Origin: Anaerolineae bacterium
GTDB taxonomy: Bacteria; Chloroflexota; Anaerolineae; Aggregatilineales; J027
DNA length: 64,000 bases
Assembly: GCA_021463865.1 (NCBI GenBank)
Contig: JAJTXY010000002.1
Coordinates: 190,219 to 254,218, forward strand
Reading direction: 5' to 3'
Of the stretch, positions 34,559-48,270 are shown piece by piece. How positions within the stretch are numbered: position 1 is the first letter of the stretch; the number at the start of each line of letters is the position of its first letter. Made by a program: the position numbers and the translations under genes. Under the pieces are notes generated by a model. The model was not told the origin of the DNA, did not search any database, and was given only the letters and a program-made list of their open reading frames with translations.

Positions 34559-35513
34559 CACCCTCGCCGACATCGTGCGGAACGCGGCCCCGCTGCTGAT
34601 TGCCAGTCAAGGTGAACTCATTACCGAACGGGCTGGTGTGGTTAATCTTTCACTGGACGGCACGATTCTGTTGGCAGCAATGGCGGCCTTTGCCGTTACG
34701 TACAATACGGGCAGTCTCGGCATGGGCATTGTGGTCGCCATGCTGATCGGCATGTTAGTGGCTTTGATCGTTATCTCCGCCAGCGTTTTTCTCAAACTCA
34801 ACCAAATTGCAGTCGGCTTTGTATTGACCCTACTCTGCGCCGACCTCAGCACCTTTTTTGGTCGGAAATATTCAGGGCAGCAGGGCACCGAAATCCCCTA
34901 TGCCCCCATCCCTATCCTAGAAGATATTCCAGTGATTGGTGAAGTCTTTTTCCAGCACAATATTTTGATTTACTTCAGTCTGCTCTTGGTCATTTTTGTT
35001 TGGCTGTGGACGTATCACACTCGTTTAGGCCTTTCCTTACGTGGTCTGGGTGAGCATCCAGCAGCGGCCTATGTGCGTGGGACACGAGTCCAAGCGTGGC
35101 GCTTTGTATACGTCGCGGCAGGTGGAGCATTGGTTGGCTTGGCCGGGGCATCCTATTCCCTGAGTGTAAAGTTGGGCTGGCGGGAAGGCTCAACACTCGG
35201 CAATGGCTGGATTGCACTGGCAATTGTGATTTTTGGCGGTTGGCGACCCTTCCGCATCGCGTTTGGCGCGTATTTCATTGTTGGTCTGCGTGCCCTAGCC
35301 CTCTATTTCCAACAAGAGGATGTACTGAATCTGCCTATTCAAATCATCAATATGACCCCTTGGGTATTGATGCTGGTCACGCTTATCTTTGTAACCAGCG
35401 GCCTAGCCGAAAGCCTCTTGGTAATCGTACCTCCCCGTTGGCGACCCGCTGCCCAAAATCTGCTGCGGGCCAAACCCCCGGCAGCCCTCGGCTCAAATTT
35501 CGAGCGCAGCTAA
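34539..35513 (+). CDS. ABC transporter permease, BMP-type importer, second subunit
   Basis: 324 residues. I place the start at the GTG at 34539, because a perfect AGGAGG (34527-34532) lies six bases upstream; an ATG at 34482 has no such site and would overlap more. Eight to nine membrane helices and the motif ITERAGVVNLSLDGTILLAAM, plus LGEHPAAAYVRGTRV for the ATPase-coupling loop, mark it as the YufQ-like partner of the preceding permease. The gene overlaps it by 20 bases. It ends the importer operon and its 3' end overlaps the convergent VTT gene. Confidence 0.88.
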   Translation: MDPVLTSTLADIVRNAAPLLIASQGELITERAGVVNLSLDGTILLAAMAAFAVTYNTGSLGMGIVVAMLIGMLVALIVISASVFLKLNQIAVGFVLTLLCADLSTFFGRKYSGQQGTEIPYAPIPILEDIPVIGEVFFQHNILIYFSLLLVIFVWLWTYHTRLGLSLRGLGEHPAAAYVRGTRVQAWRFVYVAAGGALVGLAGASYSLSVKLGWREGSTLGNGWIALAIVIFGGWRPFRIAFGAYFIVGLRALALYFQQEDVLNLPIQIINMTPWVLMLVTLIFVTSGLAESLLVIVPPRWRPAAQNLLRAKPPAALGSNFERS

Positions 35514-36239
35514 ATGGACGGGCGGTTGGTTGGTAGTTCTGGCAGCCGCCCATTTTCCTTTTTCCACTTGATAGGCCATCAGCAAAACAAATCCGACCAG
35601 CAATAGTAGTGCAAATTCGGCCCGCACGCTGTTGGAAATCATACCGCCGATGGTATCTGCCGAGTAATGTGCAATGAGAGCCAAAACGATGCAATGCGTG
35701 ACTTTGGCGATCAAAATCGGCAGGAAAACTTTGCTTGTCGGATATGTGGTCATCGCCAGCGGCAAAATAATCAACATATCAGGAATGGGGGTCGCCACAA
35801 TAATAAACACAAAAACGGGGATTGAACTGGGATATTTTCGGATTGTATTTTCGACAAATTGAAACAGAACGGTTTTGGAAAGGCCCTGTATTTTGGCGGT
35901 AATGCGATGTGCCAGCGAATAAGAAATCGTCGCCCCGATGCCTGCCCCTACGCCCGTGCCAATACTTAATGCCATCACCGCCAGCGTATCATGATTGTAA
36001 AATGCGGCTGAAAGCATCGGCAAGGTATATGGCACTTGAATTACTAACGTCGCGTTCCCGACCAGCGCCAGCAAAAAGCCACCTGCCACATCCAGCACCA
36101 ACATCTGGTCAAAAAAAGGTTCAAACGCTATGTGTATCCGTTGAAATTCCTCTAACTGTCCAGACAGCAAAAGCGAGGCACTCAGCAACAGCAAGAGCGC
36201 ACTATATTTCAATTCAAGTCGGTAGCGGCGCAGCATCAT
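35493..36239 (-). CDS. VTT/DedA-like membrane protein
   Basis: 248 residues with about six hydrophobic helices. The pattern GTGVGAGIGATISYSLAHRI followed by a segment with PVFVFIIVATPIPDMLIILP fits the VTT (SNARE-associated, DedA/TMEM41) family, now regarded as lipid flippases or scramblases. The start is one of two consecutive ATG codons at 36239-36234. It converges on the nucleoside importer and overlaps its last gene by 21 bases. Substrate lipid unknown. Confidence 0.7.
   Translation of the reverse strand: MMLRRYRLELKYSALLLLLSASLLLSGQLEEFQRIHIAFEPFFDQMLVLDVAGGFLLALVGNATLVIQVPYTLPMLSAAFYNHDTLAVMALSIGTGVGAGIGATISYSLAHRITAKIQGLSKTVLFQFVENTIRKYPSSIPVFVFIIVATPIPDMLIILPLAMTTYPTSKVFLPILIAKVTHCIVLALIAHYSADTIGGMISNSVRAEFALLLLVGFVLLMAYQVEKGKWAAARTTNQPPVHLAALEI
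35520..35563 (+). terminator. Terminator of the nucleoside importer operon, inside the convergent gene
   Basis: GGGCGG (35520-35525) pairs with CCGCCC (35546-35551) over a 20-base loop, followed by ATTTTCCTTTTT. It lies within the 3' coding region of the VTT gene. Confidence 0.5.
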
Positions 36240-36324
36240 ACCCCCTTCTATTTGGTGAGGGTTGTCATTATACAGGCAGGGGGTTAAGTCCGGTTTAAGG
36301 TTAGGAAAATATTAGGTTACGGCC

Positions 36325-36369
36325 CTGTAACCAGCCTGTAACCGCCCTGTAACGCCCGTTCGTTATCTT
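36325..36369 (+). promoter_or_regulatory. Three 11-bp-spaced direct repeats and -10, operator/promoter of the ABC-two-component operon
   Basis: CTGTAAC occurs at 36325-36331, 36336-36342 and 36347-36353, at exact 11-base steps, the one-helical-turn spacing used by OmpR/PhoB-family regulators and close in sequence to E. coli Pho boxes (CTGTCAT/CTGTAAC). A -10-like TATCTT lies at 36364-36369, about ten bases after the last repeat, with no -35, as in activator-dependent promoters. An OmpR-type regulator is encoded at the end of the downstream operon. Confidence 0.65.
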
Positions 36370-36411
36370 TCTCTCAGATTTGGAAACGTTTTTTGAGAGG
36401 AGAAAGACTGC

Positions 36412-39123
36412 GTGAAATCGCCCGCCTTTGGATTTAGACGAATAACCAGTATTGTGCTACTGGCGGTCATGCTGTTGGCAAGTGTGCTGCCAACAGCCCA
36501 TGCCCAAAACAATACACCCATCTCTTTGGCCCTGCCGAGTTTTTGGCAGAACATCATGGGAGAGGAGTTTTTAGCTGATTTTGAGACCCAATATGGTGTA
36601 GATGTCTATGTCAACTACGTAGACACCGAGTTTTCTTCGGCCAACGACATCGCCACCTTTTTGGACGATGGTCAAGATTATGTGAGTCAAGCCGATGTGC
36701 TGTATGTGGATGATTCTACATTAACACCCGAACGCACCCGCGCCGGATACTTCCTTGATCTCGCCCCATTGATTGCCAGCGATGGGTCGTTGGATACCAA
36801 CGATTTTTATCCCGCCGCTCTGCAATCCTTCCAATGGGACGCCGGAACTTGGGGACTGCCCACGTCGCTAGATGTCATTCTCATCACCTATGATGCCGCC
36901 GCCTTTGATGAAGCAGGCTTGGCCTATCCGACCTCCGCATGGACTCTCGATGATTTTGCCAATGCGGCCCGTGTCTTAGCCCAAATAGATGCCAGCGGCG
37001 CGGTGACAGTCCCCGGTCTATCTGTGCAAACTTTTGGGGATAATCTGGGCTTATTTTTGCGAACGCTGCTGTCACACGGCTTGTATGACGACAGCACCTT
37101 GCCCAACAATCCCTCATTTTCTGACCCCGCCCTTGAAACCCTTTTGACCACATGGAAAGAACTCGTAGATGAGGGAGTTGTCGGGACTAGCTTTGGGGAA
37201 ACATCCGACCAAATTCCGCTGCGTATCGAGCAGAGCATCGGTCTATCTGGTTTTGGCCCGGATTCAGTCCAGCGCAGTGGGGCAATGCTGCCGGGTGACA
37301 CCGTTGGCTTAACCGTTGAAGGCTTCGCGGTAAGCAGTGGTACACAAAACCCCGAATTGGCCTACGAATTGGTCAAATATCTGACGACCCGCCCCGAAAT
37401 CGCCAATTCATTCCAAAGCATTAACCCCGCCCGTCGCAGCATGGTCGGTGTACAGGCGGATACTGGCAATGGACAGGGCGGGCCGGGTGGCGGTGGCGGC
37501 ATCCAATTTGGACGAGGTGGTAATCTCTCCGAAGAAAATCAAGCCATCGTCAATGAGGCCATTGAAAAAGCCCTACCTATTTCGGAGACACGTTTCACCG
37601 ATTATCTCAGTTTCGCCCTACAAAAAATGCAGAATGATGGATTAGACGCCCACAGCGCCCTCCAAGAAGTCGAATTGGAAGCCATGACCGCCATGCAAGC
37701 TGCTGATGAGCGCCGCAATACGGTCACCATTTCGATTATGCCACCACCCGAACCTGTTGTCCTTGCTCCCGGCGAAGTCGCCCTAAATTTTGGTATGGCG
37801 TCCTCATTTATCATGATTGGCCCCGGCGGTGGGTTGCCCAATCAGGAACAATGGGATCAGATTTCGCAGGATTTTGCTGCCAATGACCCTGACGTGGGAG
37901 CAGTAAATGTTGAGCAGGCAATGGGGCGGTCATTGGAAGAGTTGGCGCAACAATATGACTGCTTTACCCTCGGTTACAATGCGGTTTCGGGTGACGCCGA
38001 TCTCAGCAGCATTTTGAGTCTCGACCCCTTCCTCGATACCGATCTCAATTTTAATCGTAACGATGTAATCGGGAACACCCTATCCCAATTACAGGTAGAT
38101 AACAAAACATGGGCCTTGCCAATTGGGATTCAAGCCGACGTGCTGCGGTACGATACCGAGTTATTCAGCAACGCGGGTGTGCCACTGCCCGACGGTGGCT
38201 GGACAGTAGATGAATTTGCCGACGCGCTGGAATCCTTGCAATACGGGCTGGGTGATACCGCCACATTCCAACCAGCCGACCCCGGTGGCACCTATCTGTT
38301 GATGCTCATCGCGGCCTATGGCGGCTTGCCCATTGATTATCGCACCGAACCCCCGACCATCAATTTCACCGATCCCGCGACGGTAGATGCCATTCGTCAG
38401 GTCTTGGATTTAGCCAAGAATGGTTATATCGAATATCAGGAACTCGGCGGGAACACCTTTGCTGTGTCCATTGGCGGGGGTGGTGATTCAACCCCCATTG
38501 CCATCACCACCGACAGCCTCAGTCCATTCAGCTTCCGGCGTGGTGGCCCTCCCGGTAGCCAACAAACCGAAGACACAACCGCAATTGTCAGCTATCCGCG
38601 TGGCACAACTTATAATGTGGCCTCCTATAACATCGTGACGGGGTATGTCAGCGCCACTGCCGAAAATCCCGAAGCGTGTTATCGGTGGTTGAGCGAAATC
38701 GCGCAGCACCCCGAACTCTATTCGGCCATGCCTGCCCGTACTTCGCAACTCAGTGATCCAACCATCACCACCTCTCAAGGGGAAGATTTGACGGCGCTGT
38801 ACAACGAACTTGCCACTACGATTAGCGACCCCAATACCATCACCTTCCCGCAGTCGTTTCGTGAAAGCGGCTCCCCCGCCAATTTCGCCAGAGAGTATTG
38901 GCTAAAGCAGGCGTTTGACCGCTATGTCTTGGAAGACGCAGAATTGGAGACAGAATTGGCACAGGCCCAGCAGTACACCCAAGACTACATTAGCTGTATC
39001 AGCGACCTGCCGCCGTTTGATCCTAGCAGCACCGACCAGAATTACATGCGGGATTATTTCGGGCAAATCACCACCTGTGCGGCAACTGCCGACCCGAATT
39101 ATCCGCTACCCGGTCAGGAATAA
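36412..39123 (+). CDS. Exported protein with two tandem solute-binding (family 1) domains
   Basis: 903 residues with a GTG start nine to ten bases after AGGAG. A signal peptide (RRITSIVLLAVMLLASVLP, cleaved near AHAQ) has no lipobox cysteine. Two successive domains resemble sugar-type extracellular solute-binding proteins (SBP_bac_1). Domain 1, about 35-345, has FWQNIMGEEFLADFETQYG and WGLPTSLDVILITYDAAAF. Domain 2, about 455-840, has WALPIGIQADVLRYDTELF. They are joined by a glycine-rich segment (GGPGGGGGIQFGRGG) and a helical stretch. A duplicated binding protein together with an FtsX/MacB-type permease is unusual, since such permeases do not normally use binding proteins. Perhaps it senses an envelope ligand for the kinase in the operon. 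Confidence 0.82.
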   Translation: MKSPAFGFRRITSIVLLAVMLLASVLPTAHAQNNTPISLALPSFWQNIMGEEFLADFETQYGVDVYVNYVDTEFSSANDIATFLDDGQDYVSQADVLYVDDSTLTPERTRAGYFLDLAPLIASDGSLDTNDFYPAALQSFQWDAGTWGLPTSLDVILITYDAAAFDEAGLAYPTSAWTLDDFANAARVLAQIDASGAVTVPGLSVQTFGDNLGLFLRTLLSHGLYDDSTLPNNPSFSDPALETLLTTWKELVDEGVVGTSFGETSDQIPLRIEQSIGLSGFGPDSVQRSGAMLPGDTVGLTVEGFAVSSGTQNPELAYELVKYLTTRPEIANSFQSINPARRSMVGVQADTGNGQGGPGGGGGIQFGRGGNLSEENQAIVNEAIEKALPISETRFTDYLSFALQKMQNDGLDAHSALQEVELEAMTAMQAADERRNTVTISIMPPPEPVVLAPGEVALNFGMASSFIMIGPGGGLPNQEQWDQISQDFAANDPDVGAVNVEQAMGRSLEELAQQYDCFTLGYNAVSGDADLSSILSLDPFLDTDLNFNRNDVIGNTLSQLQVDNKTWALPIGIQADVLRYDTELFSNAGVPLPDGGWTVDEFADALESLQYGLGDTATFQPADPGGTYLLMLIAAYGGLPIDYRTEPPTINFTDPATVDAIRQVLDLAKNGYIEYQELGGNTFAVSIGGGGDSTPIAITTDSLSPFSFRRGGPPGSQQTEDTTAIVSYPRGTTYNVASYNIVTGYVSATAENPEACYRWLSEIAQHPELYSAMPARTSQLSDPTITTSQGEDLTALYNELATTISDPNTITFPQSFRESGSPANFAREYWLKQAFDRYVLEDAELETELAQAQQYTQDYISCISDLPPFDPSSTDQNYMRDYFGQITTCAATADPNYPLPGQE

Positions 39124-39140
39124 ATCGGTGATGCTGGGGT

Positions 39141-39182
39141 GGAGTGTGCCAAAATTTCGTGGGAGCGTTCTGGCACACTTCC
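39141..39182 (+). terminator. Intercistronic hairpin after the binding-protein gene
   Basis: AGTGTGCCA (39143-39151) pairs perfectly with TGGCACACT (39171-39179), 19-base loop, 19 bases after the stop codon. No long T-tract, so it may protect the upstream message or cause partial termination. Confidence 0.5.
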
Positions 39183-39208
39183 TCCTTCATCCGTAGGAGA
39201 CAACGACT

Positions 39209-41968
39209 ATGTTCCGCCTGTTTGACATCTTGACGCTAGTATTCGAGCGCCTTTGGCAGCACCGGATTTTAGTGTTCTGGACGCTACTTGGCCTTTCAAC
39301 CGCGACGACCCTTGCCCTAAGCCTAACGCTGTATGTGGATGCGGTCTATAGCAATCTGCTCGACGACCAATTAGGCGACCCACCCTATGCCTTCCGTTTT
39401 CGTTATCTAGGGGCATGGGAAGGGAACATCTCACCGCAGGATGTCAGCAGTGCCAGTGCCAGTATCCATCAGGAGTTTGCCCAATCATTCGGTCTGCCTC
39501 TCCTGCGCGAAGCCCAATATATCGGCATCGGTTTTTGGGGGATTCGTAGCGCCGAAAACAACCTCAATATCGGCAATTACAGCATTGGGACACTCGAAGG
39601 GGCGGACGCACAAATTCAAATTATCGCCGGGGAATGGCCTGCGAAATCTACCTCGGTGGATGAAATTCCGGTACTCATTTCGGAAGAACTGTTTTATACA
39701 ACGGGGTTGGAGGTTGGGGATACCCTCACCGCGACCCGTTCCGGCGGCAAAACCGTCACTCTCAAAATCGCAGCGATGTGGCGGGCGGTCAACGTCAATG
39801 ATACGTCGTGGATGCTGCCACCCAAGTTTTTTAATGAAGTGCTGCTTGTCCAACCCACCGACCTAAACGCGATGGTCGAGGGCAACGACTCACCGATTGA
39901 GGAAGTGGACTGGTACGTCCTATTTGATGGCACGGGCCTACGTACCTCGGATGTACAAGCCTTGCTGTCGAATATCATCAATGGTGAGCGGAACGTCAAT
40001 GCGACCTTGCCCGGTATCCGTCTCGATATTTCACCCAAGAACGGCCTAGAATCGTTTAACCAAGAGGTTAACGAACTGCGCCAACAACTCGTCATTGTGG
40101 TGCTACCCGTTGGCGGCCTGATCCTCTATTTCGTGACCATGCTGTCGGGCATGTTGGTGGGTCGTCAGCAGCAGGAAGACGTGATTTTGAGCAGTCGGGG
40201 GATGAGCCGCCGTGCCTTGTTACGTCTACATGCGCTCATGTGGCTGATTCTGGCAGGGATAGCCCTCGGCATTGGCATGTTCGTCGCGCCATCGGTAGTG
40301 GAATTGGTAGGCCGCACCACTTCATTTTTGCGCTTCAACAACCCCACCCCCGATTTAAGCATCCAGTTTACCCAACAGGCGATTTTGCTGGGGGCCGCCA
40401 CCGGGTTGATTGCCGCCAGCAGTGGCCTCTTGATTGCATGGCGCACGACCCGCCAAAACATCACCAGTTTTAAACAGAGCCAAGCACGGGCAGGCAAGGC
40501 GTGGTGGCAGCGTATGTATCTAGATATCCTGCTGCTTATCCCGGCTGCCTATGTGTTTTATAACCTGAACGCCGAAGGGGGATTGCAGGCCGACGCTGAA
40601 AATCCGTTTAGCAATCCACTCGTGTTCCTTGCCCCCACACTGTTTTCACTCGGCCTCACACTGTTGTTCCTGCGTCTCTACCCGATGCTCTTGAATTTCG
40701 GCGCTCGTATGATTGGTATCACCAGCAGCATCGCTTTGTTGATGGCTCTGCGCGAACTGACCCGTTCGATTAGCAGGTATCGTGGGGCACTGTTGATGAT
40801 GTGCTTCACTCTGAGCCTAACCGGATTCACCGCATCTATGGCAAGCACGCTGGATCGCAGTTTGGAAGACACCATCAATTATGAAATTGGTGCCCCGTCG
40901 GTGCTGGTGGTCGCGTCGGAGGCCCAAACCGAAACCACCACCAATGACAGCGGTGAGGCGGAGGAGGAATTGGTCGGCTATAACACCCTGCCTGCCAGCA
41001 ATCTCTTGGCAGTGGAGGGTATTGACAATGTTTCACGGGTGGGCCGCTTCACAACCCAAATTCTGCTGAATAATCAGCGCATCAGTGGTACGACACTGGG
41101 CATTGATCGCGGCGCACTGGCAGCAATCGCCTATTTCCGTGACGACTATGCCGACGAAAGCCTGCCCGCCCTGCTGAACAAACTCGCCGGAAATCGCACG
41201 GGCATCCTATTAAACCGTGAAACTGCCGAAACCTACCATTTGCTAGTAGGCCAAGAAATCACTATGCAGTATTCGGCGTTGGGCGAGACCTATCAGACTA
41301 CTGTGCCCATTGTTGGACTGCTGGATTATTTCCCGACGCTTGACCCAGCAGACGGCTTTTTTGCCATCACCAATCTTGACCCAATTTTTGAACTGGTTGG
41401 GACGGAACTGCCCCATGATGTGTGGATCAGCCTCGCCCCAGATGCGGATCGAGATACGGTTCAGGCAGGTGTTCAAGAAATTGGCTTTCCGGTGCTACGC
41501 TGGCTAGACCCTCAAGAATCGTTGTTGGAAGCGCAACTCGCGCCGGGGCGACGGGGGGTGCTTGGTTTTCTTTCAGTTGGCTTTGCATCTTCAATTGTAT
41601 TGACACTCGTCGGCAGCATTATCCAAAGTACCGCCTCATTTCGCGCTCAGGCTCTGCAACTCGGTTCGCTGCGGGCAATGGGTTTGGGCGGAGGGGCGGT
41701 TGGGGAGTACCTGATTTTTGCACAGGGCATCGCCTCCAGTGGCGGTGTTATCGGCGGCACACTCATCGGGACTGCCACCACTCTGCTGTTTTTGCCACTC
41801 TTGGATTTTAGCGGAGGTCTGCCTCCCTATCTCATCCGCGTGGCATGGGATGAAATCACGTTAGTCTATGGGGTATTTGCGGGAATCCTCATCATCGTAA
41901 CTTTAATGACCACCATCCTCCTCAGCCGCGAGCATCTATCGGCTCTGGTGAAACTGGGGGATGCGTGA
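39209..41968 (+). CDS. FtsX/MacB-type ABC transporter permease
   Basis: 919 residues with AGGAG upstream. One N-terminal helix (about 20-42), a large extracytoplasmic MacB-type domain (about 45-285), then two FtsX-like blocks. The first is around 290-420, containing VGRQQQEDVILSSRGMSRRA. The second is at 775-919, containing FRAQALQLGSLRAMGLGGGA, with another extracytoplasmic domain between. About ten helices in total. This mechanotransmission class moves lipoproteins, peptides or drugs or transmits signals rather than importing solutes. It is coupled to the adaptor gene by overlapping start codons and has two ATPase genes downstream. Confidence 0.86.
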   Translation: MFRLFDILTLVFERLWQHRILVFWTLLGLSTATTLALSLTLYVDAVYSNLLDDQLGDPPYAFRFRYLGAWEGNISPQDVSSASASIHQEFAQSFGLPLLREAQYIGIGFWGIRSAENNLNIGNYSIGTLEGADAQIQIIAGEWPAKSTSVDEIPVLISEELFYTTGLEVGDTLTATRSGGKTVTLKIAAMWRAVNVNDTSWMLPPKFFNEVLLVQPTDLNAMVEGNDSPIEEVDWYVLFDGTGLRTSDVQALLSNIINGERNVNATLPGIRLDISPKNGLESFNQEVNELRQQLVIVVLPVGGLILYFVTMLSGMLVGRQQQEDVILSSRGMSRRALLRLHALMWLILAGIALGIGMFVAPSVVELVGRTTSFLRFNNPTPDLSIQFTQQAILLGAATGLIAASSGLLIAWRTTRQNITSFKQSQARAGKAWWQRMYLDILLLIPAAYVFYNLNAEGGLQADAENPFSNPLVFLAPTLFSLGLTLLFLRLYPMLLNFGARMIGITSSIALLMALRELTRSISRYRGALLMMCFTLSLTGFTASMASTLDRSLEDTINYEIGAPSVLVVASEAQTETTTNDSGEAEEELVGYNTLPASNLLAVEGIDNVSRVGRFTTQILLNNQRISGTTLGIDRGALAAIAYFRDDYADESLPALLNKLAGNRTGILLNRETAETYHLLVGQEITMQYSALGETYQTTVPIVGLLDYFPTLDPADGFFAITNLDPIFELVGTELPHDVWISLAPDADRDTVQAGVQEIGFPVLRWLDPQESLLEAQLAPGRRGVLGFLSVGFASSIVLTLVGSIIQSTASFRAQALQLGSLRAMGLGGGAVGEYLIFAQGIASSGGVIGGTLIGTATTLLFLPLLDFSGGLPPYLIRVAWDEITLVYGVFAGILIIVTLMTTILLSREHLSALVKLGDA

Positions 41969-41988
41969 TGCAGGAGAAATTCGACGAT

Positions 41989-43323
41989 ATGAAAAAACAT
42001 GTTTTCGCTCTGATGGCTTTATTGATGGTGGTATCGGCTTGCACAAATGGCGATCCGAATACAAACGGCCCTTCTGCAACGATTACCTCCATTCCCACCG
42101 CGCCCGCTGCGGCACGTCCCAAATACACCGTGCAGCGGGGTAATGTGGAGGAAATTTTCGAGTTTAGTGGTCGCTGGCAGCCGCGTGATCAAATGGAATT
42201 GTCCTTCGAGATCAACGGTACGATCCGCCAAGTCAATGTGCGGCAGGGCGATGCCGTCAGTACGGGACAGTTGCTTGCCGATTACCAGATTGAAGACCTT
42301 GAAGAACAACTGGTAAGCGCCGAACTATCGCTGGAAACGGCCCAAACCAATTTAGAGACGGGCGCAGGGACGGATGTCCAGTCGGTGGAAGATGCCGAAA
42401 TCCGCTTGGCGAATGCTAAACTAAGTCTTGAGCAGACCAAAGCCAGCCGTGATTGGACAGGGGTCGCCAATGCCCGAATTTCACTCGATGCTGCCCAACG
42501 CGATCTGGAAGACGCCGAACAAGCCTATCAAGAAGCCCTCAGCCATCCTGAACAGGGAGCAAGCGCGGTAGACAACGCCTATACCCAACTGCTCAATGCT
42601 CAAGACAGTCTGCGCCGTGCTGAAAACTCCTATTTCTCAGCCGCCCAAAGCTACAACAATGCCGAGTTCAATATCAAACAGCAGGAAAATTCGGTGATTG
42701 AGGCTGAACTAGCATTGGAACGGGCGCGGAGTGGGCAAGGCGACCCCAGCGGCCTCGAAAATTTGCGGCAGGCCCAATTGAAAGTAGATCAACTCAAAAC
42801 CGATATTGCCCGTTCTTCCCTGTATGCCCCGATTGACGGCGTGATTTTGGAAGTCAGCATCAGCCCCGGCGACCAAGTGACGGCCTACAACGCGGTCATC
42901 ACCATCGGCTTGCCCGAACCCAAAGAGGTCATCGCCAGCCTTGCGATTGGGGATGCCCAAAATCTAAGCGTCGGGATGGTTGGGGTATGTCAGGTCGCCA
43001 ATAAACCAGAAACGGCTGTGCAATGTGCCGTGCGGCGTATCCCCAGCAGCAATCGGGATGCTGACCAAACCACTCGTATCGGGGCGGGTTTTGAAAATTT
43101 GACCGACGGTCAATTGATCCAAGTGTATATGCCACTGCAAATCCGCGAAAACGTTTTGTGGCTACCTCCCGCCGCGATACGCACCTTCCAAAATCGCACC
43201 TTCGTGGTATTGGATACCCCCGACGGACAGCGTTCGGTAGATGTCGAACTCGGCCTGCAAACCGATGATCGGGTCGAAATTATCAGCGGTGTCAACGAGG
43301 GCGATGTCGTCGTCGGGCCATGA
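41989..43323 (+). CDS. Membrane-fusion/periplasmic adaptor lipoprotein (HlyD/MacA type)
   Basis: 444 residues from the ATG at 41989, which opens a lipoprotein signal peptide ending in LMVVSAC (lipid-modified cysteine about residue 18). An upstream ATG at 41965 overlaps the permease stop and would precede the signal by eight residues. It has a lipoyl-like hairpin (INGTIRQVNVRQGDAVSTGQ), a long alpha-helical coiled coil (about 95-250), the return lipoyl half (SLYAPIDGVILEVSISPGDQ) and beta-barrel and C-terminal parts. Matches MacA-like adaptors, which work with MacB-type permeases, here upstream. Confidence 0.86.
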   Translation: MKKHVFALMALLMVVSACTNGDPNTNGPSATITSIPTAPAAARPKYTVQRGNVEEIFEFSGRWQPRDQMELSFEINGTIRQVNVRQGDAVSTGQLLADYQIEDLEEQLVSAELSLETAQTNLETGAGTDVQSVEDAEIRLANAKLSLEQTKASRDWTGVANARISLDAAQRDLEDAEQAYQEALSHPEQGASAVDNAYTQLLNAQDSLRRAENSYFSAAQSYNNAEFNIKQQENSVIEAELALERARSGQGDPSGLENLRQAQLKVDQLKTDIARSSLYAPIDGVILEVSISPGDQVTAYNAVITIGLPEPKEVIASLAIGDAQNLSVGMVGVCQVANKPETAVQCAVRRIPSSNRDADQTTRIGAGFENLTDGQLIQVYMPLQIRENVLWLPPAAIRTFQNRTFVVLDTPDGQRSVDVELGLQTDDRVEIISGVNEGDVVVGP

Positions 43324-43336
43324 TCGAGGTGCAAGC

Positions 43337-44269
43337 GTGACGAGTTATATCTACTGCAAAAATCTGGTGCGGGCCTATCAAGTCGGCGGTCATGAGGTTT
43401 TAGCGCTCAAAGGGGTGGATTTTTCGATGGAACAGGGCGAGATGGTAGCGATTGTCGGGCCAAGCGGTGCAGGCAAAAGCTCCCTGCTGAATTTGTTAGG
43501 AGGATTGGATAAACCCACTGCCGGACAGTTGACGGTAGATGGTCTGAACCTGCTGGAACTTAAAGGCAAGCGGCTGGCGGAATATCGGCTGAAACGGGTC
43601 GGGTTTGTCTGGCAAAACGTCACCCGTAATCTGCTGCCGCATCGCTCCGCCTTTCATAATGTGACCCTGCCCATGACTCTTGCCGGGATGTCCCCTTGGC
43701 AGCGCGGCAAACATGCCCGCGAATTATTGGATGCGGTGGGGCTGAATGACCAAACTCATAAACGACCTGCCACTTTATCAGGTGGTCAGCAACAGCGTGT
43801 TGCTATCGCCGTCGCCCTTGCCAATCGGCCTTCGCTGTTATTGGCGGATGAACCCACCGGCGCATTGGATCGCAAAAACGCGATTCAGGTGATGCAACTG
43901 ATTAATGATTTGCGGGGGCGCTATGGCCTGACGGTGTTGATGGTGACACATGACCTTGATATTGCGGCTTATGCGGATCGCACCTTGACCCTGCGCGATG
44001 GGGCATTGGGCCAAGACGTCTCGCACGCCTACGAAGAAACACCTGTCTTAGATACCGAAGGCAGAATCCAGCTACCCGATACTGCCAAATCACAACTATC
44101 CGAGGCGACCCGTATTGCTGTCGAGGTGCGACCAGAGGGCATTTTGCTGCGACCTGAACACGATGCCCCCGACGATACCCATCTGCTGCTCAATGAGATG
44201 TTCCCGCAAGATGCTCCCCCCACGCGGCGGCGTTTCCTGCGACGGGGTAAGAAACGAGGGGCGGCATGA
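43337..44269 (+). CDS. LolD/MacB-type ABC ATPase, first copy
   Basis: 310 residues from a GTG at 43337, eight bases after GAGG; an in-frame ATG upstream (43241) lies inside the adaptor gene. Walker A GPSGAGKSS, signature LSGGQQQRVAIA, Walker B LLLADEPTGALD and the H-loop VTHD are all intact. Beyond about residue 230 is an 80-residue charged tail containing RRRFLRRGKKRG, not part of the usual domain. It should drive the FtsX-type permease. The next ATPase gene starts within its stop codon (ATGA). Confidence 0.9.
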   Translation: MTSYIYCKNLVRAYQVGGHEVLALKGVDFSMEQGEMVAIVGPSGAGKSSLLNLLGGLDKPTAGQLTVDGLNLLELKGKRLAEYRLKRVGFVWQNVTRNLLPHRSAFHNVTLPMTLAGMSPWQRGKHARELLDAVGLNDQTHKRPATLSGGQQQRVAIAVALANRPSLLLADEPTGALDRKNAIQVMQLINDLRGRYGLTVLMVTHDLDIAAYADRTLTLRDGALGQDVSHAYEETPVLDTEGRIQLPDTAKSQLSEATRIAVEVRPEGILLRPEHDAPDDTHLLLNEMFPQDAPPTRRRFLRRGKKRGAA

Positions 44270-45003
44270 GAAACAATAATCATAAAGGCCACCCCACAAC
44301 CCTCTGTGTGACGGTAGCCCGTGTGGAACGTCGTTTTGGTGATGTTCAGGTGCTGCGCGGGGTAGATTTGAATGTTGAGCGTGGTGAATTGGCAGCCTTA
44401 TATGGCCCATCCGGCAGCGGCAAAACCACCCTCTTGAATCTGATTGGGGCATTGGATCGTCCCACTGCTGGACAAATTGCGTTTTATGGGCAGGATATTT
44501 TGCGGATGAATGACCGTGCCCGTACCAAACTGCGCCGTAAATCCATCGGCTTTATTTTTCAGAGTTCGACGTTGCTGCCGACCTATACTGCCAATGAAAA
44601 CATTGACCTTGCGCTGCGTCTGCTGAAATTAAACGTTTTTGAGCGTAGTCGCCGTGCCAAATCTGCTTTGCAGGCCGTTGGTCTCAGCGCATGGGCCAAT
44701 CATGTCCCCGATGAATTAAGCGGGGGTCAGCGCCAACGGGTTGCCATTGCGCGTGCCCTTGCCATGCACCCCAAGCTGATCCTTGCCGACGAACCCACCA
44801 GCGGTCTAGATACGCGCCTTGCCCGCCGGATGCTGGCACTGTTTCGCAGTATCGCCGCGACGCAGGGCACAACCTTTTTGATCGTCTCCCACGACCCAAT
44901 GGTCATCGAATATGTAGACCATGCTTACGATCTTTTTGACGGGCAATTAACGCCCCGCCTGATTGTCCGAGAAGAAACATCTCAAGAGGAAATCCCATGC
45001 TAA
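44266..45003 (+). CDS. LolD/MacB-type ABC ATPase, second copy
   Basis: 245 residues, four-base overlap with the preceding ATPase. Walker A GPSGSGKTT, signature LSGGQRQRVAIARALA, Walker B LILADEPTSGLD and VSHD are intact. Two different ATPases for one permease suggest a heterodimeric motor, since the single large permease has two FtsX blocks. The LysM gene starts before its stop codon. Confidence 0.9.
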   Translation: MRNNNHKGHPTTLCVTVARVERRFGDVQVLRGVDLNVERGELAALYGPSGSGKTTLLNLIGALDRPTAGQIAFYGQDILRMNDRARTKLRRKSIGFIFQSSTLLPTYTANENIDLALRLLKLNVFERSRRAKSALQAVGLSAWANHVPDELSGGQRQRVAIARALAMHPKLILADEPTSGLDTRLARRMLALFRSIAATQGTTFLIVSHDPMVIEYVDHAYDLFDGQLTPRLIVREETSQEEIPC

Positions 45004-45872
45004 AAGTTATCATGAAACAGGGCATGTCGGCCCTAACGATGATTCTGGCGATGATCGCCGGGGGAGTTATCACCCGTCTCGCCATTCCCAGCGACAATGT
45101 TACAGATAATGATTCTACCCCGTATGCCAATGTCCAGCAGCAGGAAACCACCCCGTCGCCTACCGCTTCGGAGACCATTCCGCCGTATACGCCCCTACCA
45201 TCACTCACACCCTCACAGACACTCAAGCCACCACCCACCTTTGAGCCACCAACACTGACCCCGCAGCCATCATTGACGCCGACCTTGACGCTGACCCCAA
45301 CCATTCAACTGGACGTGTCTGTTCCCGGTCTCAATGGGGCAGAAACACCGACACCCTCCACCACACCCGGTTGTGTCCCGCGTGAGGATTGGACATTGAC
45401 TTATACCGTCAAACGGGATGATGCGCTGGCCTTAATCGCCGAGCAGTATAACACCTATGTGGATGAGTTGGTCAAAGCCAACTGCCTCAAAGATAAGAAC
45501 CTCATTGTTATCGGGCAGGTGTTACGAGTACCGGGGACAGCCCAACCCGTCCAAGCCTACGATTGCAAAGCATGGGAAGTCCTAACTCCGTTTAATGGCA
45601 CGGTGACAGTAGCAGGAGACGGCCAGATTACCTTTAATTGGCGTGGCCCGGATGCACCCAAATATCTGATTCGCATCTATCGGCCCGATGGCACAGTTTT
45701 TGAGCGATTGGTAGAACTACGCCAAAATGAACAGATTCAGGCCAGCGAAGACCTGCGACCCGGGGGAACCTATACATGGTATGTTTACCCACTGGACAAT
45801 AACTTTGTGCAAATCCCCTGTCACGAAGGCGGCCCTTGGCAGTTCACCAAAGAAGCAGCGGGAGGGGCTTGA
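44997..45872 (+). CDS. Membrane-anchored LysM-domain protein
   Basis: 291 residues. An N-terminal helix (about 8-28, SALTMILAMIAGGVI) acts as signal anchor, followed by a Thr/Pro-rich spacer of about 80 residues. A LysM-like domain (about 135-180, LTYTVKRDDALALIAEQYNT and LIVIGQVLRVPG) should bind peptidoglycan. A C-terminal beta-sandwich-like part follows with WNGTV-type strands and two cysteines. The start overlaps the second ATPase gene by seven bases. It probably tethers the ABC complex or senses the cell wall. Confidence 0.8.
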   Translation: MLKVIMKQGMSALTMILAMIAGGVITRLAIPSDNVTDNDSTPYANVQQQETTPSPTASETIPPYTPLPSLTPSQTLKPPPTFEPPTLTPQPSLTPTLTLTPTIQLDVSVPGLNGAETPTPSTTPGCVPREDWTLTYTVKRDDALALIAEQYNTYVDELVKANCLKDKNLIVIGQVLRVPGTAQPVQAYDCKAWEVLTPFNGTVTVAGDGQITFNWRGPDAPKYLIRIYRPDGTVFERLVELRQNEQIQASEDLRPGGTYTWYVYPLDNNFVQIPCHEGGPWQFTKEAAGGA

Positions 45873-45928
45873 CAGGGAATCAGCTTGCGCTACGCTGAAA
45901 AGAAGTGAGATGTAGTGGAGAGAAATAA

Positions 45929-47575
45929 ATGAGCACCTTGCAATCCATCCGGTGGCGACTACCCCTCAGCTACGCGGGCATCGCGTTGTTGGCGACCCTA
46001 GCTTTAGGGACGGTTTTGCTGACCACGCTCAATGGCTATTATACGCAGCGTGAACGCGAATATCTCCATCGCATTTCTGGGCCGTTCTCGCGTAATATCG
46101 AGCAGTTTGCCTCGGATGGGGTTGCTTTGGACGATATGCAATATGTCATAGACAATCACAGCTTTATTGCGCGTTCACGGGTACGCCTCCTCGATCCAAA
46201 TTCACAAGTCGTCTTAGATACCGGTACTTTCACAGGTGGCGACTTTATCACCATTAGCGTCGAAGGTGCGCCTCCCGATGCCATCCTGAGCACAGGCAGT
46301 ATGGCGGTAGCAGGAGGGGGCGGAGATTCGAGGATACCTCCAGATTTGCAAGTGACGCAAGGCTCAGTGGCCGCACCAGCGATTATCTCGTTTCTCAGTC
46401 TCAATGGCAGAGTACCCTTTGAATATGCTGTGTCCGATGGCGAAGACCGTACAGTTTATGGCCCGCTAGAATTCAAGGGACAGTCCCGCATGTTTTCCGT
46501 ACCTGTCGGCGGCAGCCCATTTGGATATGATTTAGACAACCCCGAGATTTCGAAAGATGGGCGGCACTCCAGCGAAAAAATCATCCGACCATTGTATACC
46601 GATGATGGGACATTCATCGGTTATCTTGAAGTGTCGGAAGGGCCAGCCTTTGGACGCGAGATTTTAGACAGCGTAGCAAAGGGCTTGATTAGCGCGGGAG
46701 CAGTAGCGATTATTCTGGCCGCGCTGGTTGGCTGGTTAGTGAGTCGGAATATCAGCCAACCTCTGCTTGTTTTGACTGAAGCCACCAGCCACATGGCCGA
46801 TGGTCGGCTTTCGGCCCGCGTAGATTTAAAGCGACAGGATGAGCTTGGTGTCTTGGCTCGTTCGTTTAATGACATGGCGCATCGCGTCGAGAATACCGTT
46901 GTCACCCTGCGCCGATTTGTAGCCGATGCCGCTCATGAACTGCATACCCCCCTGACCGCCCTGCGCACCAATCTCGAGTTAGCGGTTGTCGAAACCGACC
47001 CGCAGACCCGTGAAAACTTTATCCATCGTGCCGAAGCCCAAGCCAACCGCCTTGAACATCTGACCAACAGCCTGCTCGATTTGGCACGCATTGAATCCGG
47101 TTCGTATCAGCATCAGACCCAATCGGTGGATTTGACAGGATTGGTCAAACAAATTAATGAGGTTTATGCGTCACGGGCTGAACAGGCCGGGTTATCACTG
47201 AACCTTGAGACTCCCGCTCAGGAAGTTGTCATTGAAGCCAATGAGCCACAAATCACGCGGGTGATTGATAATCTGCTCGATAACGCGCTCAAATTTACCC
47301 CCGAAGAGGGCACCATTACATTGGGGCTGATTCCACAAGAAAGTGATGTTGAATTGTGGGTCAAAGATACAGGTATCGGCATTCCTCCCGAAGATTTGCC
47401 GAATCTATTTAACCGTTTTTATCGGGGGCATAACGTCGCGGCTTATCCGGGCAATGGCCTCGGCCTTGTGATTATCAAAGCTATTGTAGAGGAACATCGG
47501 GGGACAGTTGCAGTTCACAGCGACCATTCCGGCACACGTTTTTCGGTCAGGCTGCCAAAGGGAGCAGTATCATGA
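45929..47575 (+). CDS. Sensor histidine kinase
   Basis: 548 residues, GGAG before the ATG. Membrane helices at about 14-34 and 247-268 enclose a 210-residue extracytoplasmic sensor. Then come HAMP (about 270-325), a HisKA domain with the phospho-acceptor H336 in DAAHELHTPLTALRTN, and a HATPase_c domain with NLLDNALKFTPEEG (N box), VKDTGIGIPP (G1), FYRG and GNGLGLVIIKAI (G2). The residue after HEL is His, where Arg or Lys is usual. Forms a two-component pair with the following regulator by ATGA overlap. The sensor is likely responsive to the envelope. Confidence 0.93.
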   Translation: MSTLQSIRWRLPLSYAGIALLATLALGTVLLTTLNGYYTQREREYLHRISGPFSRNIEQFASDGVALDDMQYVIDNHSFIARSRVRLLDPNSQVVLDTGTFTGGDFITISVEGAPPDAILSTGSMAVAGGGGDSRIPPDLQVTQGSVAAPAIISFLSLNGRVPFEYAVSDGEDRTVYGPLEFKGQSRMFSVPVGGSPFGYDLDNPEISKDGRHSSEKIIRPLYTDDGTFIGYLEVSEGPAFGREILDSVAKGLISAGAVAIILAALVGWLVSRNISQPLLVLTEATSHMADGRLSARVDLKRQDELGVLARSFNDMAHRVENTVVTLRRFVADAAHELHTPLTALRTNLELAVVETDPQTRENFIHRAEAQANRLEHLTNSLLDLARIESGSYQHQTQSVDLTGLVKQINEVYASRAEQAGLSLNLETPAQEVVIEANEPQITRVIDNLLDNALKFTPEEGTITLGLIPQESDVELWVKDTGIGIPPEDLPNLFNRFYRGHNVAAYPGNGLGLVIIKAIVEEHRGTVAVHSDHSGTRFSVRLPKGAVS

Positions 47576-48270
47576 GACCCACGAATCATATTCTGGTGAT
47601 TGAAGACGACCCCGGCATCGCCTATAGCCTGCAAGATGGCCTCAAACGCGAGGGCTACACGGTAACATGGAAAGCCAATGGGCATGACGGAATGGATTTT
47701 GCCCGCGACATCAAGCCTCACCTGATTATTTTGGACGTTCGCCTGCCTGACGGCTCCGGCTTCGATTTTTGTCGCCAAATGCGCTATATGGGTCTGCGGC
47801 AGCCGATTATTATGCTGACCGTCAACCGCGAGGAGATGGATAAGGTGCTGGGGCTGGAAATGGGCGCGGATGATTATGTCACCAAGCCCTACAGCTTGCG
47901 CGAATTAGCCTCAAGGGTACGGGCGCAGTTACGGAGGGCCTATGGCGAACTTGCTAGCACCGACAGCAATACCCTCTATGTCGGCGACCTTTTGATTGAC
48001 CGGGCGCGAGGGCAGGTGACGCGCGGTGAAGAGGTGGTCAATTTGACCCCCACCGAGTTTCGGTTGCTGACATTTATGGCCCAACACCCCAATCAAATCC
48101 TCAATCGCAACCAGATTTTGGACGCGGTGTGGGGCTATGAAAGTGACCCCGACAGTGAACAAATCGTCAAGGTAAATATCCGGCGTCTCCGTGAAAAAAT
48201 TGAGATTGACCCCAGTCGTCCCACATTGCTGCTGACGGTGCCGGGGATTGGTTATAAGCTGGTGTGCTGA
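47572..48270 (+). CDS. OmpR/PhoB-family response regulator
   Basis: 232 residues with an N-terminal receiver domain: acidic pair in VIEDDPG, phospho-acceptor D55 in LIILDVRLPDGSG, and the lysine of VTKPYSLREL. The C-terminal winged helix-turn-helix contains LTPTEFRLLTFMAQHPNQIL and VNIRRLREKI. It overlaps the kinase gene by four bases. OmpR-type regulators bind direct repeats about 11 bases apart, matching the repeats at 36325-36353 upstream of this operon, so it probably controls its own operon. Confidence 0.94.
   Translation: MRPTNHILVIEDDPGIAYSLQDGLKREGYTVTWKANGHDGMDFARDIKPHLIILDVRLPDGSGFDFCRQMRYMGLRQPIIMLTVNREEMDKVLGLEMGADDYVTKPYSLRELASRVRAQLRRAYGELASTDSNTLYVGDLLIDRARGQVTRGEEVVNLTPTEFRLLTFMAQHPNQILNRNQILDAVWGYESDPDSEQIVKVNIRRLREKIEIDPSRPTLLLTVPGIGYKLVC

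Follow-up and report, generated by a model that had tools for sequence, protein, structure and literature searches.

Why is a solute-binding protein (SBP), a receptor of the importer type, encoded together with an export-type ABC machine and a two-component switch, and do the three form one system that regulates itself? The locus that raises this question lies in the window, the whole stretch of 64,000 nucleotides analysed here, from a Chloroflexota genome (G000). Positions 36412-48270 hold eight ORFs, all on the same strand and overlapping or closely spaced, and the 3' end of a convergent acetyltransferase gene lies 10 bp past the regulator gene. The initial annotation had described co-directional genes with overlaps or short gaps, in an order with which the ORF map agrees. 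Its count of nine genes was rejected and becomes eight, because one ORF of 903 aa encodes both SBP domains of the tandem binding protein, the two supposed copies being halves of one polypeptide; the term tandem here stands for two homologous domains and not for separate genes. The features are as follows.

36312..36369, + strand: promoter element, with an inverted half-site within GGTTACGG, three CTGTAAC repeats, a 10-nt spacer and a -10-like TATCTT
36412..39123, + strand: tandem SBP, 903 aa, with a signal peptide and without a lipobox; two SBP_bac_1 halves at about 33-440 and 451-890
39209..41968, + strand: type VII ABC permease of YbbP topology, 919 aa, 10 TM helices, extracellular domains at about 60-274 and 564-776
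41965..43323, + strand: MacA/RND-type periplasmic adaptor (TIGR01730, 100 bits, cut-off 94.9) with a lipobox-like VVSAC
43337..44269, + strand: ABC ATPase 1, LolD/MacB class (Pfam/NCBIfam), GTG start inferred
44266..45003, + strand: ABC ATPase 2, LolD class, Walker and signature motifs intact
44997..45872, + strand: membrane-anchored LysM protein (PF01476, E 8e-11)
45929..47575, + strand: sensor histidine kinase with two TM helices, an extracellular domain of about 215 aa and HAMP-HisKA-HATPase
47572..48270, + strand: OmpR/PhoB-family response regulator (PF00072, PF00486; alignment)

Judged by gene content and order, this is a conserved eight-gene set of a Chloroflexota group that joins a tandem SBP, a predicted ATP-driven membrane machine and a putative two-component switch, and no description of such a pairing was met in the open-access papers searched. 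The window's genome also has a gene for a VTT-domain-like membrane protein (35493-36239, minus strand, below the Pfam cut-off), which lies between the operon and the transporter genes preceding it; the four congeners have only about 160 bp at this position.

Comparison by hhalign shows the two SBP halves to be homologous (probability 99.9%, E 1e-33; 371 columns aligned at 20% identity), and the AlphaFold model of the tandem protein, built from a 64-row alignment, has a pLDDT of 86.6 and a pTM of 0.79. Structural alignment of the first half, to which the Z values refer exclusively, places it with MalE/UgpB-class oligosaccharide-binding proteins (Z up to 27), in agreement with Foldseek, and matches to sugar-binding-protein profiles span both halves. 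From the fold only, we infer that the ligand is glycan-like. The suggested cell-wall or peptide sensing has to be narrowed accordingly, as the match of both halves to oligosaccharide-binding proteins makes a peptide less likely than a glycan.

The permease matched no Pfam or NCBIfam model and, even with a 31-row profile, no PDB entry by sequence. Membership in the Pfam FtsX/MacB family was rejected for lack of a Pfam match, and the protein was assigned by fold instead. Its AlphaFold model (31 rows; pLDDT 82.1, pTM 0.66) runs in the order TM1, extracellular domain, TM2-6, TM7, second extracellular domain, TM8-10, and the best PDB folds found by Foldseek are E. coli YbbP (9ge6/9ge7, E 1e-20), followed by BceB, LolE and MacB. 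The adaptor scores far under the cut-off of the MacA equivalog model. ABC ATPase 1 probably starts at 43337; the two ATPases are 42% identical, and both are retained across loci. The LysM protein comprises an N-terminal hydrophobic helix, a Pro/Thr stalk, the LysM domain and a C-terminal domain, and its gene is a core member in nearly all loci with enough sequence. Within the operon there is no gene for a hydrolase, a CUT1 permease, a TolC outer-membrane channel or a TesA-like esterase. In the five loci of the order that were examined (L057-L061), sister permeases of 10-TM length and ~30% identity often lie next to two ATPases without an adjacent tandem SBP, and the two-ATPase arrangement may be older than the partnership with the SBP. 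For the regulator, the best family model is MtrA (NF040689), with 219 bits against a curated cut-off of 300; naming it PhoB or MtrA was rejected, since the scores fall under the curated cut-offs.

Of all parts of the observation, the promoter has the strongest support. Its region had been described as three CTGTAAC repeats at exact 11-base spacing with a -10 about ten bases beyond. The repeats begin at 36325, 36336 and 36347, as claimed, and the -10-like TATCTT (36364-36369) starts exactly 10 nt past the third; an inverted half-site, GGTTACGG, located upstream of the repeats (36314-36321 region), had been overlooked. No further spaced pair of CTGTAAC was found elsewhere in the window with up to two mismatches (0.14 expected per shuffle) or elsewhere in its genome with up to one. 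Chance repeats were rejected on the basis of this rarity in window and genome together with pattern and matrix scans against reversed controls. The spacing is exact in 18/18 lineages, with the consensus RTTACRR-N2-CTGTAAY-N4-CTGTAAS-N4-NTGTAAY-N10-NATNNT, in which the GTAA columns of units 1 and 2 are invariant and those of unit 3 nearly so, the spacer columns being mostly variable. A2 and T6 of the -10 stand at offset 10 in all 18 lineages, and at any other offset in three at most. By this layout, the element is a predicted response-regulator-type promoter, in which four half-sites replace the -35 box and the -10 follows 10 nt on.

Genome-wide motif scans were run as patterns. Across 154 genomes of the order, the degenerate pattern gave 30 matches in 26 genomes and none in the reversed control; 24 of the matches lie directly before the tandem SBP (22 within 133 bp of its start, two on truncated contigs), and one lies upstream of a kinase-regulator unit (L112/L178). 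A weight-matrix scan of 68 loci yielded 46 matches of at least 13 bits, compared with 2 in reversed sequence, and 38 of the 46 precede SBP, kinase or permease genes; because the matrix was built from part of the scanned sites, the reversed control and a leave-one-out test carry the weight here. In three split operons, every part is preceded by a copy of the element, although some copies are weak: the scores are 22.7 (permease), 21.8 (SBP) and 15.2 (kinase) for L204, 34.3 (kinase) and 24.4 (SBP) for L178, and 28.5 (SBP) and 15.4 (divergent kinase) for L162. This is the picture that one regulon under one regulator should give. The operon also contains an OmpR-family regulator gene together with 7-bp direct repeats at 4-bp spacing before the -10, and the two-component switch very probably controls the promoter of its own gene set.

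Some sites lie apart from the operon. The promoter element occurs 36 nt before a gene for a PMT_2-type membrane glycosyltransferase (L104:9030-10631; G000:C8:90586-90630); this site is kept in the window's genome and its congeners G001 and G003, with a degenerate copy in G004, and the Pfam match was obtained in G000 only. In one family the element occurs twice, the additional copy lying about 650-700 bp further upstream (L169:9236, L203:132, L171:9174, L172:7018, L159:43, L179:2340), in front of a gene that adjoins the tandem SBP and encodes a small secreted protein (about 150 residues when mature). Both kinds of site fit an envelope theme and prove nothing about function. TTGTGAC-type repeats with an 11-bp period and a TATATT 10 nt on (G000:C7:4108-4135, L144) are kept in G002, G003 and G004, and in G000 an ankyrin-like gene follows them. 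They were initially taken as a site of the same regulator, an assignment not kept because the half-sites differ, and perhaps belong to a related one.

How widely the parts travel together was examined by searching Chloroflexota relatives for the gene order and the CTGTAAC repeats, a check proposed in the initial annotation. Since both recur across families of the order, sequence evidence gives good support to the claim of a single system that regulates itself. Permeases with ≥50% identity occur in 43 genomes of the order, and all 43 have the tandem SBP; conversely, 43 of the 45 genomes with a tandem SBP have the close permease (Fisher's exact p 3e-36, which, the genomes being related, is not a true probability). 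Among 400 genomes across the phylum, the tandem SBP (E 1e-60) was found only in two, both of the order, and permeases of ~30% identity are spread across the phylum. In a tree of 67 tandem SBPs, that of the window belongs to an 18-row clade (SH-aLRT 99) with permease and site in every row and kinase and regulator in 13 rows, the other five being short contigs that end too early to show them. Tandem SBPs outside this clade are of three kinds: some are accompanied by just the permease, some by just kinase and regulator, and some are solitary. The frequent occurrence of the binding protein without permease or kinase, named at the outset as an argument against a single system, is seen for some paralogs (22/67 stand alone), but neither for the window's clade nor by genome. 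Comparative evidence identifies a conserved and co-inherited core, namely the tandem SBP with the YbbP-type permease, both ATPases, the adaptor and the LysM protein, with kinase and regulator linked to it in the window's clade. In some operons (L050/L180, L051/L167, L052/L174), the core comes without a kinase-regulator pair linked to it or without a clear site, which implies that there are other ways of wiring the transporter. With one exception, the hosts are MAGs of Chloroflexota. The exception, L194, bears the label Bacteroidetes; its contig carries the full kinase-regulator-SBP-SBP-exporter set and, because it nests with an Anaerolineaceae row, probably comes from a mislabelled or mixed bin.

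The role of the tandem SBP can be approached through loci in which it has other neighbors. Its gene directly adjoins those for kinase and regulator in L183, L188 and L165, and in the window the three share one operon; L183 and L188 consist of regulator, kinase and tandem SBP without an exporter, with the site before the kinase. On another contig of the window's genome (L062:6676-10377, contig C59), a tandem SBP paralog 33-36% identical to that of the window forms a 1233-aa fusion with a BlaR1-type M56 peptidase. The M56 domain (PF05569) was confirmed by Pfam in L062, in its counterparts L211/L220 and in L215, a separate lineage; by length and match, L212 and long proteins in G002, G003, G004, G052 and G069 are similar. 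A gene for a BlaI-type repressor (PF03965) lies directly upstream of the fusion in L211 and L215, and a BlaI-type reading frame is likewise visible upstream in L062. BlaR1 itself senses through its outer domain. No paper on BlaR1/M56 proteins with an SBP was found in the open-access literature. The existence of exporter-free regulator-kinase-SBP loci and of M56 receptor fusions favors a sensor role, and the genomic company of these paralogs points to such a role for the tandem SBP.

Taken together, the set probably detects something harmful at the cell surface and mounts a response to it. We lean, with a little more belief than doubt, toward a glycan-sensing, positively autoregulated envelope-defence module built as a type VII ABC/two-component system. 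A glycan-like ligand would be bound by the tandem SBP outside the membrane, and the SBP would signal to the kinase, directly or via the transporter. The phosphorylated regulator would then bind the repeats and recruit RNA polymerase, so that the entire operon would be expressed more strongly in a positive feedback. Driven by the ATPase pair, the permease, a pseudodimer, would act by mechanotransmission; adaptor and LysM protein would extend to the wall, and the output would be removal or handover of an amphiphilic or cell-wall-targeting compound. In a broader and more tentative version, for which our belief falls slightly short of our doubt, the SBP pair, an importer-type receptor, came to serve as ligand receptor for a mechanotransmission ABC machine of the export type and for the two-component system that goes with it. 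The same tandem receptor would also have been built into BlaR1-type proteases, and one order of Chloroflexota would possess a family of envelope alarms set off by glycans.

The same proteins could be arranged differently. The tandem SBP may be the soluble outer partner of the transporter, capping the permease and receiving or delivering cargo as in LolA-LolCDE and TesA-YbbAP, with the kinase sensing alone, as its own extracellular domain may allow it to do without the SBP. This arrangement, unlikely on balance but deserving serious attention, would suit an SBP gene that directly precedes the permease in most loci, is present in every one of the 43 permease genomes, and stays with the permease where the kinase is missing (L050, L051, L052, L122) or the order is altered (L201, L214); in the known case, TesA sits on the two periplasmic domains of YbbP (PMC12646458). 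It fails, however, to explain the exporter-free kinase-regulator paralogs (L183, L188) and the M56 fusions. A dual role of the SBP as sensor and transporter partner, analogous to the transporter-based sensing of BceAB (PMC5985334), is possible. More doubtful is a wall-remodelling regulator resembling FtsEX-EnvC, in which permease force would act on the LysM protein and adaptor and the SBP would read wall fragments without efflux: the mechanotransmission fold of the permease and the LysM protein in the core of nearly every sufficiently long locus are in line with it, but an adaptor of the RND/MacA type is usual in efflux systems and has no counterpart in FtsEX, and the operon lacks a hydrolase gene.

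The direction of control is not readable from the sequence by itself, so that the repeats could also be an operator for repression. We regard this as very improbable, as the half-sites fill the -35 place at a fixed 10-nt gap to the -10, as for an activator, and a consensus scan revealed no sigma-70 -35/-10 pair at the promoter; activation is therefore the likelier sense. Hardly credible, finally, is a loose collection of genes whose SBP belongs to a conventional sugar importer with its genes at another locus. The MalE-like character of both SBP halves would agree with it, yet the operon has no CUT1 permease, SBP and exporter permease co-occur near-perfectly, and the parts of split operons share the promoter element; the co-inheritance data thus disfavor it. 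If the glycan-sensing module is correct, a type VII ABC machine that works outwards can be controlled by a receptor of the uptake kind. The promoter signature is exact enough for sequence-only mapping of the regulon in uncultured Chloroflexota, and the tandem SBP as outer domain of M56 proteins offers a way to learn what poorly known envelopes monitor.

A soluble outer partner, such as EnvC, LolA or TesA, is common among type VII permeases (PMC12646458). The view that an SBP with a mechanotransmission permease is a non-standard pairing therefore does not hold for outer partners in general, which are common, but it does for a tandem SBP in that place, of which the papers searched gave no description. 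The open-access literature likewise yielded no paper on SBPs with FtsX/MacB permeases in Chloroflexi or on tandem substrate-binding domains with exporters. The closest relative by predicted structure is E. coli YbbAP-TesA (PMC12646458), which shares the 10 TM helices, the two extracellular domains (TM1-2, TM7-8) and the pseudodimeric build. It differs in having a single ATPase gene whose product forms a homodimer, where the operon has two distinct ATPases; the operon further adds a MacA-type adaptor, a LysM protein and a two-component system, and the tandem SBP replaces the esterase. Kinases of BceAB(S)-RS systems have no extracellular sensor domain, unlike the kinase here, with about 215 extracellular residues between its two TM helices. 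The likeness to BceABS/BceRS lies in a type VII 10-TM permease that is accompanied by a two-component system, as are the permease genes of B. subtilis BceABS (PMC5985334), and in the fold match to BceB; BceB has one extracellular domain (PMC12646458) compared with two in our model, and adaptor and SBP are extra here.

With MacAB and YknXYZ, the operon shares an RND/MacA-type adaptor combined with LolD/MacB-class ATPases, but MacB is a 4-TM protein with a fused ATPase, whereas here a 10-TM pseudodimer permease has separate ATPases, and the operon adds the tandem SBP, the LysM protein and the two-component system. A sugar-type SBP gene adjoining kinase and regulator is also found in CuaDSR (PMC10384115), whose output is an importer; here, the SBP is tandem and the output operon encodes an exporter-type machine. 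The arrangement of 7-bp repeats with 4-bp spacing resembles OmpR-family promoters of the PhoB/PhoP/MtrA type: M. tuberculosis PhoP binds 7-bp direct repeats with 4-bp spacers (PMC4832192), and Streptomyces MtrA binds GTnAC-type repeats (PMC5650626). The promoter described here differs in its three direct repeats plus one inverted half-site, and its regulator scores under every curated cut-off of these families. All the kinds of component are already known, and it is their combination that is new, rather than the kind of machine.
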